This document shows, one piece after another, positions 21,544 to 26,472 of a stretch of DNA of 58,223 bases (position 1 is its first letter; each line of letters opens with the position of its first letter). The notes beneath the pieces are model-generated. The model had not been told where the DNA came from and did no database searches. It worked only from the letters and a program-made list of their open reading frames with translations. The stretch comes from Methanoculleus formosensis (lineage in GTDB: Archaea; Halobacteriota; Methanomicrobia; Methanomicrobiales; Methanoculleaceae), in contig NZ_VHLL01000009.1 of assembly GCF_025384765.1 (NCBI RefSeq), positions 1 to 58,223 of the forward strand. The letters run 5' to 3'. Position numbers and translations under genes: made by a program.

Positions 21544-22782
21544 TTACTTGAATACGTCGAAGATCTGGTCGCTGCCGGTGTCGGAGAGCCGCTGGCGTTC
21601 CGCCTGCTCCTCGACGAGCGCGAGGACCGGGAGCTCCATGTCCACACCCGGGGTGTGACCGAACATCTTCTCCATATCCGTCTGCAGGGCGTGCATGAAG
21701 AGCGCGTTCGGGATATCCATGGCGCAGTTCTCCTCGCACTGACCGCAGTTGACACACGAATCCGAGATGTGAGCGTAGCGGATCAGGTGGAACATGAAGG
21801 GCGGCGGAACCTGACCGGGCTCGACCAGATAGGGCTTCTTCGTGCTGCACTCCACGCAGTAGCAGATCGGGCAGTTCTCGATGCAGGCGTAGCACTTGAT
21901 GCACCGGCCCGTCTCGCTCATGATCTTCTGGAGACGCTCCTTGCCCTCGCCGAGTGCCTCGAAATCTTTCGCCCGCCACTTGTCGCCGAGTTTCAGCATC
22001 GAGTTCTCGACCTTGCCGCGGATCTCGATACCCTTCGGGTTCGCGGCCTCGGTCTTGAGCCCTCCGGCCTTCACGGCCCCGTCGAGGAGGTTTGCGCCCT
22101 TCTCGGAGCAGACCTCGACGAACGTAGCGTTCCCGGCCTTATCGCCAATGACGCCCCAGTTTCCGCAGGCGAGGTCCGCCTGGCGGGGGATCTTCATCTT
22201 GCACCGGCGGCAGTTCGAGCGGCGGCCGAAGCCCGCCTCCTCGAGTTCGTCCATCGAGATGCCTTTGTGCTCACCATCCTTCGTGACGATGATGAACTGG
22301 CCCTTGTCGATCTCTTCCTTGACGACCGTGTCGGGGTCGACCCCGAACTTCTCGGCGATCATCTCCCGGGCAAGAACCGGGCTGACCGAACCGCCGCAGT
22401 TGAGGCCGATCATCAGGACGTTGTCCAGGTTGACCTGGTTGCGCTTCGCGAGCTCGTAGAGGCCCATCGCGTCGCAGCCTTTCACCGGGACGGCGATCCT
22501 CATATCCTTGGCGCCGTCGAGGTATTCCTTCACCAGTTTCGAGAGCAGGAGCGTCCCGCAGTGGAGCGAGCCAGACGTCTCTGCGATCTCCTCAGGGTTG
22601 GTGATGAGGGTCGGGACTGCGTCGTAGAGATCCTGTCCCTTCTTCACGGCAAGGACAGCATCCACCATGCCAGACGTTAGGGCGTGCGTCAGCAGAGCGG
22701 TGACCGCTCCGCCGCACTCGCCCCTCTCCTGGCAGGCGGCGTCGGCTGCCCATGCGTAGACCATATCGCCTTTTGCTGCCAT
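21544..22782 (-). CDS. fdhB: Formate dehydrogenase beta subunit (F420-reducing, FrhB family)
   Basis: A 412-residue FAD/F420 subunit that passes electrons from formate oxidation to coenzyme F420. GECGGAVTALLTHAL near the N-terminus and GLNCGGSVSP mark the FrhB-type F420/FAD region. Two C-terminal ferredoxin motifs, CIKCYACIENCPICYC and CVNCGQCEENCAMDIP, bind [4Fe-4S] clusters; RRSNCRRCKMK adds another cysteine pair. ATG 22782 (MAAKGDMVYAW) overlies the fdhA stop region by a few bases of separation, typical of coupled subunits. A short piece of this gene, 63 bases with three mismatches, reappears at 25621-25683. Confidence 0.95.
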   Translation of the reverse strand: MAAKGDMVYAWAADAACQERGECGGAVTALLTHALTSGMVDAVLAVKKGQDLYDAVPTLITNPEEIAETSGSLHCGTLLLSKLVKEYLDGAKDMRIAVPVKGCDAMGLYELAKRNQVNLDNVLMIGLNCGGSVSPVLAREMIAEKFGVDPDTVVKEEIDKGQFIIVTKDGEHKGISMDELEEAGFGRRSNCRRCKMKIPRQADLACGNWGVIGDKAGNATFVEVCSEKGANLLDGAVKAGGLKTEAANPKGIEIRGKVENSMLKLGDKWRAKDFEALGEGKERLQKIMSETGRCIKCYACIENCPICYCVECSTKKPYLVEPGQVPPPFMFHLIRYAHISDSCVNCGQCEENCAMDIPNALFMHALQTDMEKMFGHTPGVDMELPVLALVEEQAERQRLSDTGSDQIFDVFK

Positions 22783-22784
22783 CT

Positions 22785-24851
22785 TCAGGCCTCCGTGATC
22801 TTCTCGACCTTCACAGCACAGGCCTTGAACTCCGGGATCTTGGCGATCGGGTCGAGAGCGTTGTTCGTCAGTATGTTTGCCGCGCACTCGGCGAAGTGGA
22901 ACGGCATGAACATGACACCCTTCATGATATCGGGGGTCACCTTCGCGGGAACGTTCACCGTGCCGCGGCGGGTGGTCGCACGGACCATCTCCTTGTTCTG
23001 GATGCCGAGCGCCTTGGCGTCGTCGGGGTTGATCTCGATCCAGCCGGTCGGGACCTCACTGTCGAGCGTCGCGGAGCGGCGGGTCATGGTGCCGGTGTGC
23101 CAGTGCCAGAGGATACGGCCGGTCGTGAGGACGAACGGATACTCTGCGTCGGGGACCTCCGCCGGCGGTTTCCACTCGATAGGAGCGAAGATGCCGATGC
23201 CGTCGGGGTGGGAGAACTTCTCCTTGTGGAGAATCGGCGTGCCGGGGTGTTCCACGGTCGGGCAGGGCCAGTGGAGGGCTTCGGGCTTGTTGAGGCGCTC
23301 GTAGTTCATCCCATGGTAGGACGGGGTGAGTTCGGCGACCTCGTTGAAGATCTCCTCCATGTTCTGGTAGGGGAACTGGTCCGCGTAACCCATCTTTGCC
23401 GCGAGTTCGCTGATGATCTGCCAGTCTTCCTTCGCCTCACCAGGCGGGTCCTGGGCTTTACGCCACATCTGGACGCGCCGCTCGGTGCTGGTCTGGGTGC
23501 CGTCGCGCTCCGCGTAGCATGCCGCAGGCAGAACAACGTCGGCGAGTTCGCTCGTCTCGGTCATGAAGATGTCCTGGACGACCAGGAACTCCAGGCTCTC
23601 GAGGGCATGCCTGACGTGGTTGATGTCCGGGTCGGAGATCATCGGGTTCTCGCCCATGATGTACATGCACTTGAGTTCGCCGGGGTTGTCGGTCAGGACG
23701 TCCATCATGACGGTGACCTCATAGCCGTTCTTCGGCTCGCAGATGCCGTCGGGGAAACCCCAGGCGTCGGCGAACTTCTTATGGGCGGCCGGGTCGATGA
23801 CCTTCTGGTAGCCGGTGAAGACGACCGGGAGTGCGCCCATGTCACAGGCGCCCTGGACGTTGTTCTGGCCACGGAGCGCGTTCACGCCGGCGCCGGGCTT
23901 GCCCAGGTTGCCGGTCAGCATCTGGATGTTTGCGACCGACCGGACGTTGTCGACGCCGACGGTGTGCTGGGTGATACCCATCGAGTAGAGGATCGCGCCG
24001 GGCTTCGTGGTGCCGAAGATCTCGGCGGCCTGCTTAATCTGGTCGGCCGGGATGCCGGTGACCTTCGAGACGTTCTCAAGGCTGTAGTCCTCCTTCATGA
24101 CGACTTCCTTGAGCTTCTCGTAGTCCTTCGTCCTCTTCTCGATGAACTCCTTGTCCTCCCAGCCGTTCTTGATGATCTCCTGCATCAGGCCGTTCAAGAG
24201 AGCGACATCGGTGCCGGAGACGAACGGCATGTAGAGGTCGGCCAGCCGGGCGGTCGGAGTGTAGCGCGGGTCGGCGCAGATGACCTTCGCGCCGTCCTGC
24301 TTCGCCTGGACGATCTTGCGGCCGATCAGCGGGTGCTGTTCGAGGGTGTTCGACCCGAGAACGAAGATGCACTTCGACTCGGCGATATCGAGAATGGAGT
24401 TGGTCATCGCCCCGGAGCCGAACGAAGCGGCAAGGCCGGCGACGGTGGATGCGTGACAGAGTCGGGCGCAGTGGTCGATGTGACGAGATTTCATGACGCC
24501 GCGGGCGAACTTCATCATCAGGTAGTTCTCTTCGTTCGAGACACGTGCTGAGGAGAGCGCCGCGAACTCATCGGGCTTGTACGACTTGAACTTCTGTGCG
24601 ATCAGGTCGTAGGCCTCGTCCCAGGTCGCCTCGACGAATTTGCCGTCCTTCTTGATGAGCGGCTTCGTGAGGCGGTCCGGGCTGTTCACGAACTCGTGAG
24701 CGTAAGTGCCCTTGGGGCAGACTTTTCCCTCGTTGACCGGAGAACGCTTGTAAGGTTGTGTGCCGACAACCTTTCCGTCCTTCACGACGAGATTAAAGCT
24801 GCACCCTGTACCGCAGTACGGGCATGTAGTTTGTACATACTTGAGATCCAT
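22785..24851 (-). CDS. fdhA: Formate dehydrogenase alpha subunit (Mo/W-bis-MGD)
   Basis: A 688-residue molybdopterin oxidoreductase. The N-terminal [4Fe-4S] motif is C10, C13, C17 and C45. The metal ligand is C132 in HCARLCHASTVAG, the place taken by selenocysteine in some formate dehydrogenases, so this is the Cys form. It oxidises formate to CO2 at the Mo or W centre and hands electrons to FdhB for F420 reduction, feeding methanogenesis. The frame continues 16 codons upstream, but MDLKYVQTT at 24851 fits the TATA box at 24872. No fdhC formate transporter is adjacent. Confidence 0.95.
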   Translation of the reverse strand: MDLKYVQTTCPYCGTGCSFNLVVKDGKVVGTQPYKRSPVNEGKVCPKGTYAHEFVNSPDRLTKPLIKKDGKFVEATWDEAYDLIAQKFKSYKPDEFAALSSARVSNEENYLMMKFARGVMKSRHIDHCARLCHASTVAGLAASFGSGAMTNSILDIAESKCIFVLGSNTLEQHPLIGRKIVQAKQDGAKVICADPRYTPTARLADLYMPFVSGTDVALLNGLMQEIIKNGWEDKEFIEKRTKDYEKLKEVVMKEDYSLENVSKVTGIPADQIKQAAEIFGTTKPGAILYSMGITQHTVGVDNVRSVANIQMLTGNLGKPGAGVNALRGQNNVQGACDMGALPVVFTGYQKVIDPAAHKKFADAWGFPDGICEPKNGYEVTVMMDVLTDNPGELKCMYIMGENPMISDPDINHVRHALESLEFLVVQDIFMTETSELADVVLPAACYAERDGTQTSTERRVQMWRKAQDPPGEAKEDWQIISELAAKMGYADQFPYQNMEEIFNEVAELTPSYHGMNYERLNKPEALHWPCPTVEHPGTPILHKEKFSHPDGIGIFAPIEWKPPAEVPDAEYPFVLTTGRILWHWHTGTMTRRSATLDSEVPTGWIEINPDDAKALGIQNKEMVRATTRRGTVNVPAKVTPDIMKGVMFMPFHFAECAANILTNNALDPIAKIPEFKACAVKVEKITEA

Positions 24852-24871
24852 GGTAAAAACCTCGGATACCA

Positions 24872-24879
24872 CTATATAG
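24872..24879 (-). promoter_or_regulatory. TATA box of fdhAB
   Basis: CTATATAG, itself palindromic, is centred about 24 bases upstream of the fdhA ATG, implying a leaderless or nearly leaderless transcript. Confidence 0.6.
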
Positions 24880-24892
24880 ACGATTGTAATAT

Positions 24893-24909
24893 TTAACACT
24901 AGTGATTAA
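24893..24909. promoter_or_regulatory. Palindrome upstream of the fdh promoter
   Basis: TTAACACTAGTGATTAA contains the perfect palindrome CACTAGTG flanked by TTAA on both sides. It lies 14 bases upstream of the TATA box, where activators or BRE-blocking regulators could bind. Candidate operator only. Confidence 0.4.
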
Positions 24910-25231
24910 CAGATGGGTTTTTGATGAATAAGTGTGGGTAGCATAATCTTTCTTCCCGGGAGATGATCTCGATCTCCGGCATCACCGGCCGGTTCCGTTG
25001 TAGAGCATATACCCGGGCCCCGCGCCTCGACGCGCGCCTGAAGCGGCGTCCGACTGATTATAGTATAGAAAGGCCGGTCGGAGTAAGGCCCCTTATCGAT
25101 CTCCGGGTCCGAGTGCACGATCACCCCCGGTCCTGGAGCGCGGGACCCCGTAGAGGCACCGGCGGCAGCTGTTTCGGCGGGCGCCCGACCGCGGAGGCTA
25201 TTCGCCACGGGGATGGCGGCTTGCGGGAGGA

Positions 25232-25600
25232 TCTCACCCCCTGTCTCCAGCGCGCAGACGTTCCCCACCCCGCCCGCGAGGGGTGGGGTGGGGCGACGGA
25301 TAGCAACCATCCGGCGGAGACCTGGGTTGGGGCTATCGGAAAAGTCATACGCAGTAGAGACAGGGGGGGTGCCCCCCGTCAGCCTCCTCCCCAATGGCGA
25401 TACTCCCACGCTCCACTGTATGGGAAGATGCTGAAAATGGATGGGGGCCCGTTTCGCCTCCCAGACACGGCTTTCCACCGGCTATCGCCACACACTGCCC
25501 CCGCCCCCGGGGGTGGGGGAGGAGCGCCGGAGGCGCGGGCGGGATGGGAGCTACAGATATCCAGGATGGGTGGAGACAGGGGGATGCTCCACACCCTTTC
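25232..25600. repeat. GC-rich two-module intergenic repeat
   Basis: Module b (25345-25436, GACAGGGGGGGTGCC... ending near CCACTGTATGGGAAGATG) and module a (25468-25550, CGGCTTTCCACCGGCTATC...) match segments at 9346-9425 and 9233-9310 in the opposite order. CCCCCTGTCTCCA at 25238-25249 is inverted at 25570-25583, giving the block ends. A shorter module b copy is at 44963-45035. Confidence 0.7.
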
Positions 25601-25602
25601 TG

Positions 25603-25683
25603 ACGGCGAGGATATAGCACCCACCATGCCAGACGTTAGGGCGTGCGTCAGCAGAGCGGTGATCGCACCGCCCCACTCGCCCT
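25603..25683 (-). pseudogene. Fragment of fdhB
   Basis: Bases 25621-25683 match 22662-22724 in fdhB with three mismatches; the first 42 bases are identical. Read on the minus strand it encodes GGAITALLTHALTSGMV, the counterpart of GGAVTALLTHALTSGMV in FdhB. Weaker similarity continues to about 25603. The rest of the gene is absent. It may be the relic of a second fdh locus or of a recombination between copies. Confidence 0.8.
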
Positions 25684-25845
25684 ACTTCAGCACGTCGGCG
25701 CCCGTGACCTCTTCAGCCGCTCATGACCGGCGGGATACAGCAGGAGCAGAGCCTGCCCTCCGGATACCCCCTCGATTGAGGGAAGATGTTATTATCGGTG
25801 GACGCGTAACCCTCTCACACAACTGCACAGGAGAGAGTTTCCATC

Positions 25846-26472
25846 GTGAAGAAGATGCTGCCGATCCCGCCGATGCTCGTCGACCTGGTGGGAAACGCCC
25901 TCGCGTCGATGGACGGCGTTATATTCGCTGATCTCGCCGCCTGCCCATCGTGCAGGGGCCAGGTGATCGGGCACGACATGCGGGCAAAGCGGTTTGCTGT
26001 CATACTCGATCAGGGAAAAGAGCACACTATCCGGGTCTTCGTGAAGCGTTTCTACTGCCAGGATTGTAACGCCCTCTGCTATGCGGACGCCCCCTTCTAC
26101 CCCGACACCCGTCTCGCGTCGCCCATCGTCGATCTCTGCATCCTCCTCTCGCAGCAGATGCCCTTCAACCAGGTGGCGCAGCACCTCCTGGCGATGGGGA
26201 TCGTCGTCGACCGGGGAACGATCCGGAACTACGCCTCCCGCGATTTTGGGGCGATCCCCGCGACCAACCTCTTCGGGTTCCTGCTACCGCTCCCCCTGCT
26301 GAACCTCGCCACCTTCGCCCTCAGCCGGGAGGGGCGCCCCATCGTAGGGGCAGAAGTGCTCGCCGCCTGCGGTTTCCCACCCGCAAACAGGGCACCTCCT
26401 CACGGCAGAGCGACGCCCAAAGAGCGGGATCAGCGGGATGAACAGGAAGAGAAAGAAGAACGGGAACCCTGA
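25846..26472 (+). CDS. Zinc-ribbon, HTH-like hypothetical protein
   Basis: A 208-residue protein with GTG start (25846) behind GGAGAGAG. CPSCRGQVIGHD and FYCQDCNALCYADAPF form a zinc ribbon, and QMPFNQVAQHLLAMGIVVDRGTIRNYA looks like a helix-turn-helix. This arrangement resembles N-terminal halves of some transposases and of nucleic-acid binding proteins, but there is no DDE core. The last 60 residues overlap a convergent small gene by 189 bases and are highly charged at the end (ERDQRDEQEEKEE). Function unknown; either this tail or the opposite gene may not be expressed as drawn. Confidence 0.6.
   Translation: MKKMLPIPPMLVDLVGNALASMDGVIFADLAACPSCRGQVIGHDMRAKRFAVILDQGKEHTIRVFVKRFYCQDCNALCYADAPFYPDTRLASPIVDLCILLSQQMPFNQVAQHLLAMGIVVDRGTIRNYASRDFGAIPATNLFGFLLPLPLLNLATFALSREGRPIVGAEVLAACGFPPANRAPPHGRATPKERDQRDEQEEKEEREP

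Follow-up and report, generated by a model that had tools for sequence, protein, structure and literature searches.

Why does a piece of a formate dehydrogenase gene lie in the spacer upstream of the fdhA and fdhB genes of Methanoculleus formosensis? The window analysed here is a stretch of 58,223 nucleotides. A sequence-only reading had described 63 bases in this spacer that match fdhB with three mismatches, including a 42-base identical run, on the same strand as fdhB and 2.9 kb away. It suggested that a second fdh copy was lost, or that recombination through repeats left a piece. We find that the scrap is best explained as a fossil of fdhB2 from a deleted tandem operon, fdhA2B2, with an fdhB1 tract that would have been placed in it by ectopic gene conversion. 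On comparative sequence grounds this reading has a probability of about 0.88.

In the proposed history fdhA2B2 once stood between fdhA1B1 and orf208. As the comparison shows, its deletion in this lineage left fdhB2 in two collinear pieces, flanked on one side by the upstream region of the surviving fdhA and on the other by the orf208 spacer. Ectopic gene conversion would have placed a short tract of the live fdhB1 into the main piece. The scrap would need no function.

Relics in the spacer upstream of fdhA

A repeat search of the window returned a direct repeat pair, 22657-22741 in fdhB and 25616-25700, of 85 nt with 86% identity and a spacing of 2959. The pair bears out the match described earlier, together with its distance: 25621-25683 aligns with fdhB over 63 nt with 3 mismatches, and the scrap has the orientation of fdhB (minus strand). 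It lies between the 5' end of fdhA and the start of orf208. The full homology of the main scrap to fdhB2 (Table 1) extends beyond the 63-nt match with the resident fdhB. Alignments with fdhB2 of nine two-copy relatives cover 106-117 nt at 78-81% identity, with E values of 4e-19 to 5e-25, and this match is not due to chance.

Table 1. Features of the fdh locus, with positions in the window.
Feature	Position	Strand	Remarks
fdhB, fdhB1 type	21544..22782	-	live F420-linked formate dehydrogenase beta subunit; from internal ATG; 134/151 diagnostic sites fdhB1-type
fdhA, mosaic	22785..24851	-	fdhA1-type at the 5' end up to a point between nt 147 and 286, fdhA2-type beyond it
fdhA1 upstream region (P1)	24852..24951	-	identity to the P1 of relatives about 72-90%, highest with G014
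Second fdhB2 scrap, 46 bp	25138..25183	-	overlooked by the sequence-only reading; 39-40/46 to fdhB2, 30/46 to own fdhB1
Dispersed palindromic repeat element	25237..25583		perfect 13-bp inverted repeat at ends; core 25462-25583
Main fdhB2 scrap, 117 bp	25588..25704	-	about codons 13-51 of fdhB2; in-frame TAG, Cys-to-Trp change, 2-bp insertion
Run identical to own fdhB, 42 nt	25621..25662	-	contains the fdhB1-type tract of the main scrap
End of ancestral fdhA2-orf208 spacer (P2 end)	about 25776..25845		77-87% identical to P2 of two-copy relatives
orf208	25846..26472	+	conserved neighbour bounding the locus; mostly 70-87% in congeners

The resident FdhB contains the Pfam domains FrhB_FdhB_N and FrhB_FdhB_C (PF04422, PF04432), and FdhA scores 892.2 bits against TIGR01591 (curated cutoff 666.25). 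A search of the genome with FdhB gave three full-length strong matches (C9, which is the window, C13 and C10) and two weak distant ones. The sole short match was the scrap itself, at 25607-25693, with 66% amino acid identity and one TAG. By eye on the alignment, an origin of the scrap from the C10 or C13 genes is unsupported. The relic is inactivated by the TAG and the 2-bp insertion, and most of the gene is missing. No function was found for the scrap.

The spacer between fdhA and orf208 is 994 bp long in the window, where a single operon is present. On the map of G003, a two-operon relative, it keeps four remnants in the ancestral order: P1, fdhB2 557-598, fdhB2 1002-1116 (the main scrap) and the P2 end. 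The second scrap corresponds to fdhB2 557-598 of G003 at 25138-25179, and reaches 25183 with other relatives. Its score of 57.2 was attained by 0/500 dinucleotide shuffles of the region (best 38.3), and it is fdhB2-type at 7/7 diagnostic sites. A further hidden fdhB2 piece between the scraps (25184-25587) seems unlikely, most of this space being the dispersed repeat. Weak similarity to the transposase models ISL3 and IS66, far under the cutoff, was seen in the first part of orf208, yet the gene keeps its place genus-wide.

Tandem fdhAB operons in related genomes

In relatives the gene order, in window orientation, is fdhB1, fdhA1, fdhB2, fdhA2, orf208, C1-transfer protein, MfnD-like ligase, surE and rpiA. 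The earlier suggestion that a second fdh copy was lost agrees with this arrangement, which has fdhA2B2 at exactly the place where the window spacer holds its four collinear remnants. The scrap had been described as one of fdhB; it derives not from the present fdhB but from a diverged paralogue, fdhB2, with about 70% protein identity to fdhB1. Finding the fragment also in distant relatives that lack any duplication would have spoken against the earlier reading, but 0/26 genomes outside the genus matched at the DNA level.

A search with the FdhB2 of G003 identified fdhB2 at 89% identity or more in 19/35 genomes of the genus; it returned no other fdhB2-type match in the window genome (G000), where no intact copy is left. 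The single-copy locus is contiguous in 11 of the 16 genomes without an fdhB2 match (G000, G001, G002, G014, G017, G020, G021, G023, G025, G031 and G033). The remaining genomes (G012, G024, G026, G032 and G034) were left out of the single-copy count, as their contigs end in or near fdhA.

Scraps of fdhB2 or fdhA2 are kept in 4/11 contiguous single-copy loci, and the pieces differ in each. Besides the window, G014 retains the 3' end of fdhB2 (73 bp), G033 retains 166 bp, and G031 retains 100 bp plus 158 bp of the fdhA2 5' end, all of them collinear. Only P1 and the P2 end are left in G025, with no fdhB2 or fdhA2 scrap, and none were seen in the contiguous loci of G001, G002, G017, G020, G021 and G023. 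In a species tree of three genes and 35 genomes, G014 is sister to the two-operon G003 (100/99) and G000 joins them at 94/88. Given the different pieces and this tree, several independent losses are the simplest reading. As 7/11 contiguous single-copy loci have no scraps, an ancestral single-copy state is possible for some of them. We consider that fdhA2B2 was probably lost several times, the number of losses being an estimate. Recombination through repeats, as proposed earlier, may have been the mechanism of loss.

Among 13 loci looked at, the tandem fdhAB pair is present in L221 (Methanoculleus sp. FWC-SCC1), where the C1-transfer protein is only 75% identical, and in L194 (57%), while a single operon stands in L175 and L216, both labelled Methanofollis. 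The pair thus seems to predate the genus. In G001 (L097:997-8005) the single fdhAB has a further fdhAB operon directly next to it, more distantly related (71% and 76%); an operon of similar identity is found on another contig in the window genome.

The fdhB1-type tract and the fdhA mosaic

A site was taken as diagnostic when all 8 fdhB1 genes of the clade shared one state and all 5 fdhB2 genes of the clade another. The main scrap has 18 such sites in the pattern 22222222 111111 222x, that is, 11 fdhB2-type, 6 fdhB1-type in one block, and 1 of neither type. The fdhB1-type block has fdhB2-type sites on either side. By hand calculation, the chance of six type-1 sites standing in one block among 17 typed sites is 12 in 12,376. 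Counting clade-fixed sites, the tract is at least 13 nt long; codons found only in the resident fdhB would extend it to about 25 nt, and its upper limit is about 60 nt.

Without any lost operon, 42 identical nucleotides on the same strand could also come from the present fdhB by a recent small duplication, put upstream of fdhA by a replication or repair error. Such an event would give neither the fdhB2-type flanks on both sides of the block, which contradict a recent copy of the neighbouring fdhB, nor the other scrap, which is fdhB2 alone, nor the two spacer remnants in the ancestral order. We regard such a duplication as very improbable. The scrap is best read, from the alignment, as fdhB2 sequence with a short fdhB1 tract acquired by gene conversion from the live gene. 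A local assembly error at the locus is formally possible.

The tract is a pattern in the alignment, from which we infer conversion and its direction. The peptide at the tract is LLT in 33/33 fdhB1 rows and LQQ in 19/19 fdhB2 rows, and the codons CTA-ACG-TCT occur in no alignment row except the window's own fdhB1 and the scrap. These features favour transfer from the live fdhB1 to the relic, after this lineage diverged from G003 and G014. To the right of the block, the first type-2 site of the main scrap is a GCC codon also present in the resident fdhB1, and some of the tract may instead have passed from the relic into the gene. Type-2 sites make up 12/151 diagnostic sites of the window fdhB1. 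In the fdhB1 gene of G011 (L091:62-1306) the fdhB1-type LLTH directly follows ADVLKK, a stretch resembling fdhB2 that may be a further conversion; the contig starts 61 nt upstream, and an assembly effect is possible.

It is the fdhB1-type tract that makes the 42-nt identity. The sequence-only reading took the near-identity to mean that the event is recent or maintained by conversion. One short tract does look converted, but a short tract in a stop-bearing fdhB2-type sequence does not date the operon loss, and elsewhere too a close local match of a scrap to a live gene calls for the same caution, since it can stem from conversion. The tract may have been transferred before or after the operon was lost.

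The identity also means that a plus-strand RNA from the scrap would be perfectly complementary to the resident fdhB message over 42 nt. The scrap might accordingly be kept for a candidate function, for instance as an RNA antisense to this message, with the match renewed by conversion. One simple archaeal TATA pattern had no match on the plus strand of 25180-25625, an Rfam search at the locus gave no match at E up to 1, and the other genomes that lost the operon keep different pieces or none. Such a function seems very unlikely, and we retain the fossil reading.

The fdhA gene is itself a mosaic. Nucleotides 4-147 are fdhA1-type at 21/22 diagnostic sites, with one neither, and the sequence after that is fdhA2-type at 78/89. 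Segment trees place the window fdhA in an fdhA1 clade of 11 rows for nt 1-230 (96/94) and outside an fdhA1 clade of 14 rows for nt 450-950 (99/100). The mosaic was initially read as a product of the loss in this lineage, but much the same pattern occurs in 7/7 other single-copy genomes tested (G031, G025, G023, G001, G021, G002 and G017; G021 is the least clean of these). The fdhA genes of G014 and G033 are fdhA1-type throughout.

Loss of the operon by one unequal crossing-over between fdhA2 and fdhA1 is a further alternative, suggested by the mosaic and by identical stretches of 72-156 nt that the fdhA copies share in nine two-copy relatives. Such a crossover predicts an fdhA2 start joined to an fdhA1 body, and it would leave the upstream side of fdhA free of fdhB2. 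In the window the mosaic runs the other way round, and fdhB2 pieces do lie upstream of fdhA. The order of the parts contradicts a single crossover, which we consider extremely improbable. The preferred reading of the window fdhA is conversion of fdhA1 by fdhA2. A Methanofollis fdhA is nearer the fdhA2-type body, and together with the mosaic in the other single-copy genomes this makes it possible that the body was retained from the ancestor.

In L221 (11936-18832) the two fdhA copies show no difference over 1981 nt, a stretch that starts at nt 151 of fdhA and ends at nt 2131, some 70 nt inside fdhB; over the first 150 nt or so they are only about 80% alike. Unless this is an assembly artefact, it reflects recent fdhA homogenisation with a boundary similar to that in the window.

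Known systems and the neighbouring repeat

Loss of a tandem gene copy ordinarily leaves pseudogene relics that are collinear, stop-bearing and deletion-ridden, at the ancestral site. The fdhB2 scraps share all of these properties. What sets them apart from ordinary relics is that the same operon has left different pieces in four congeners, and that one of these pieces contains a tract of the live gene. Titles and abstract openings yielded no literature on the loss of tandem fdhAB copies in Methanoculleus or on the neighbouring repeat. Established processes, operon loss and ectopic gene conversion, account for the locus, which is well resolved and represents no new system. It points to an fdh operon lost repeatedly among related methanogens, and the pieces left behind still document the former content.

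Gene conversion between mtrA-1 and mtrA-2 is described in Methanomicrobiales and Methanococcales (PMC4632066). As that system is described, it resembles the present one in that adjacent paralogues of a methanogen core gene, in the same order, have one part homogenised and the other distinct. Both mtrA copies persist, whereas here one operon was lost, the tract lies in a decayed scrap, and the genes are fdhA and fdhB. More tentatively, and as something we hold to be possible rather than probable, the tandem fdhA copies of this group could provide, after mtrA, the second example of a methanogen core gene under long-running gene conversion. The upstream region and N-terminus would stay private to each copy, set off by a recurrent boundary near nt 150, with a common body and two fdhB genes that remain distinct. 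After decay began, the live gene and the relic would have gone on exchanging sequence. The tandem fdhAB pair may lend itself well to studies of gene conversion in methanogens.

The dispersed repeat element stops four bases short of the main scrap. In the window genome, positions 25300-25600 matched 69 pieces distributed over 40 sites, the stretch itself included. The core was found in 23/120 genomes of the order, 22 of this genus (the window genome included) and 1 of another genus of the family. At the fdh locus of G014 and G033 there was no match among the best few candidates scored per genome, and the repeat has no match in Rfam. Like REP-type repeats as described in PMC12306157, whose main text contains 0 occurrences of Methanoculleus, it is dispersed, GC-rich, hairpin-forming, intergenic and sometimes clustered. 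It differs from them in its greater length, with a core of about 120 nt plus another module, and in being almost confined to a single genus. The consensus from 30 aligned copies has 19 pairs, 5 of them with both-sided changes, and two neighbouring pairs are swapped in 9/30 copies. The repeat is made of two modules, which often alternate.
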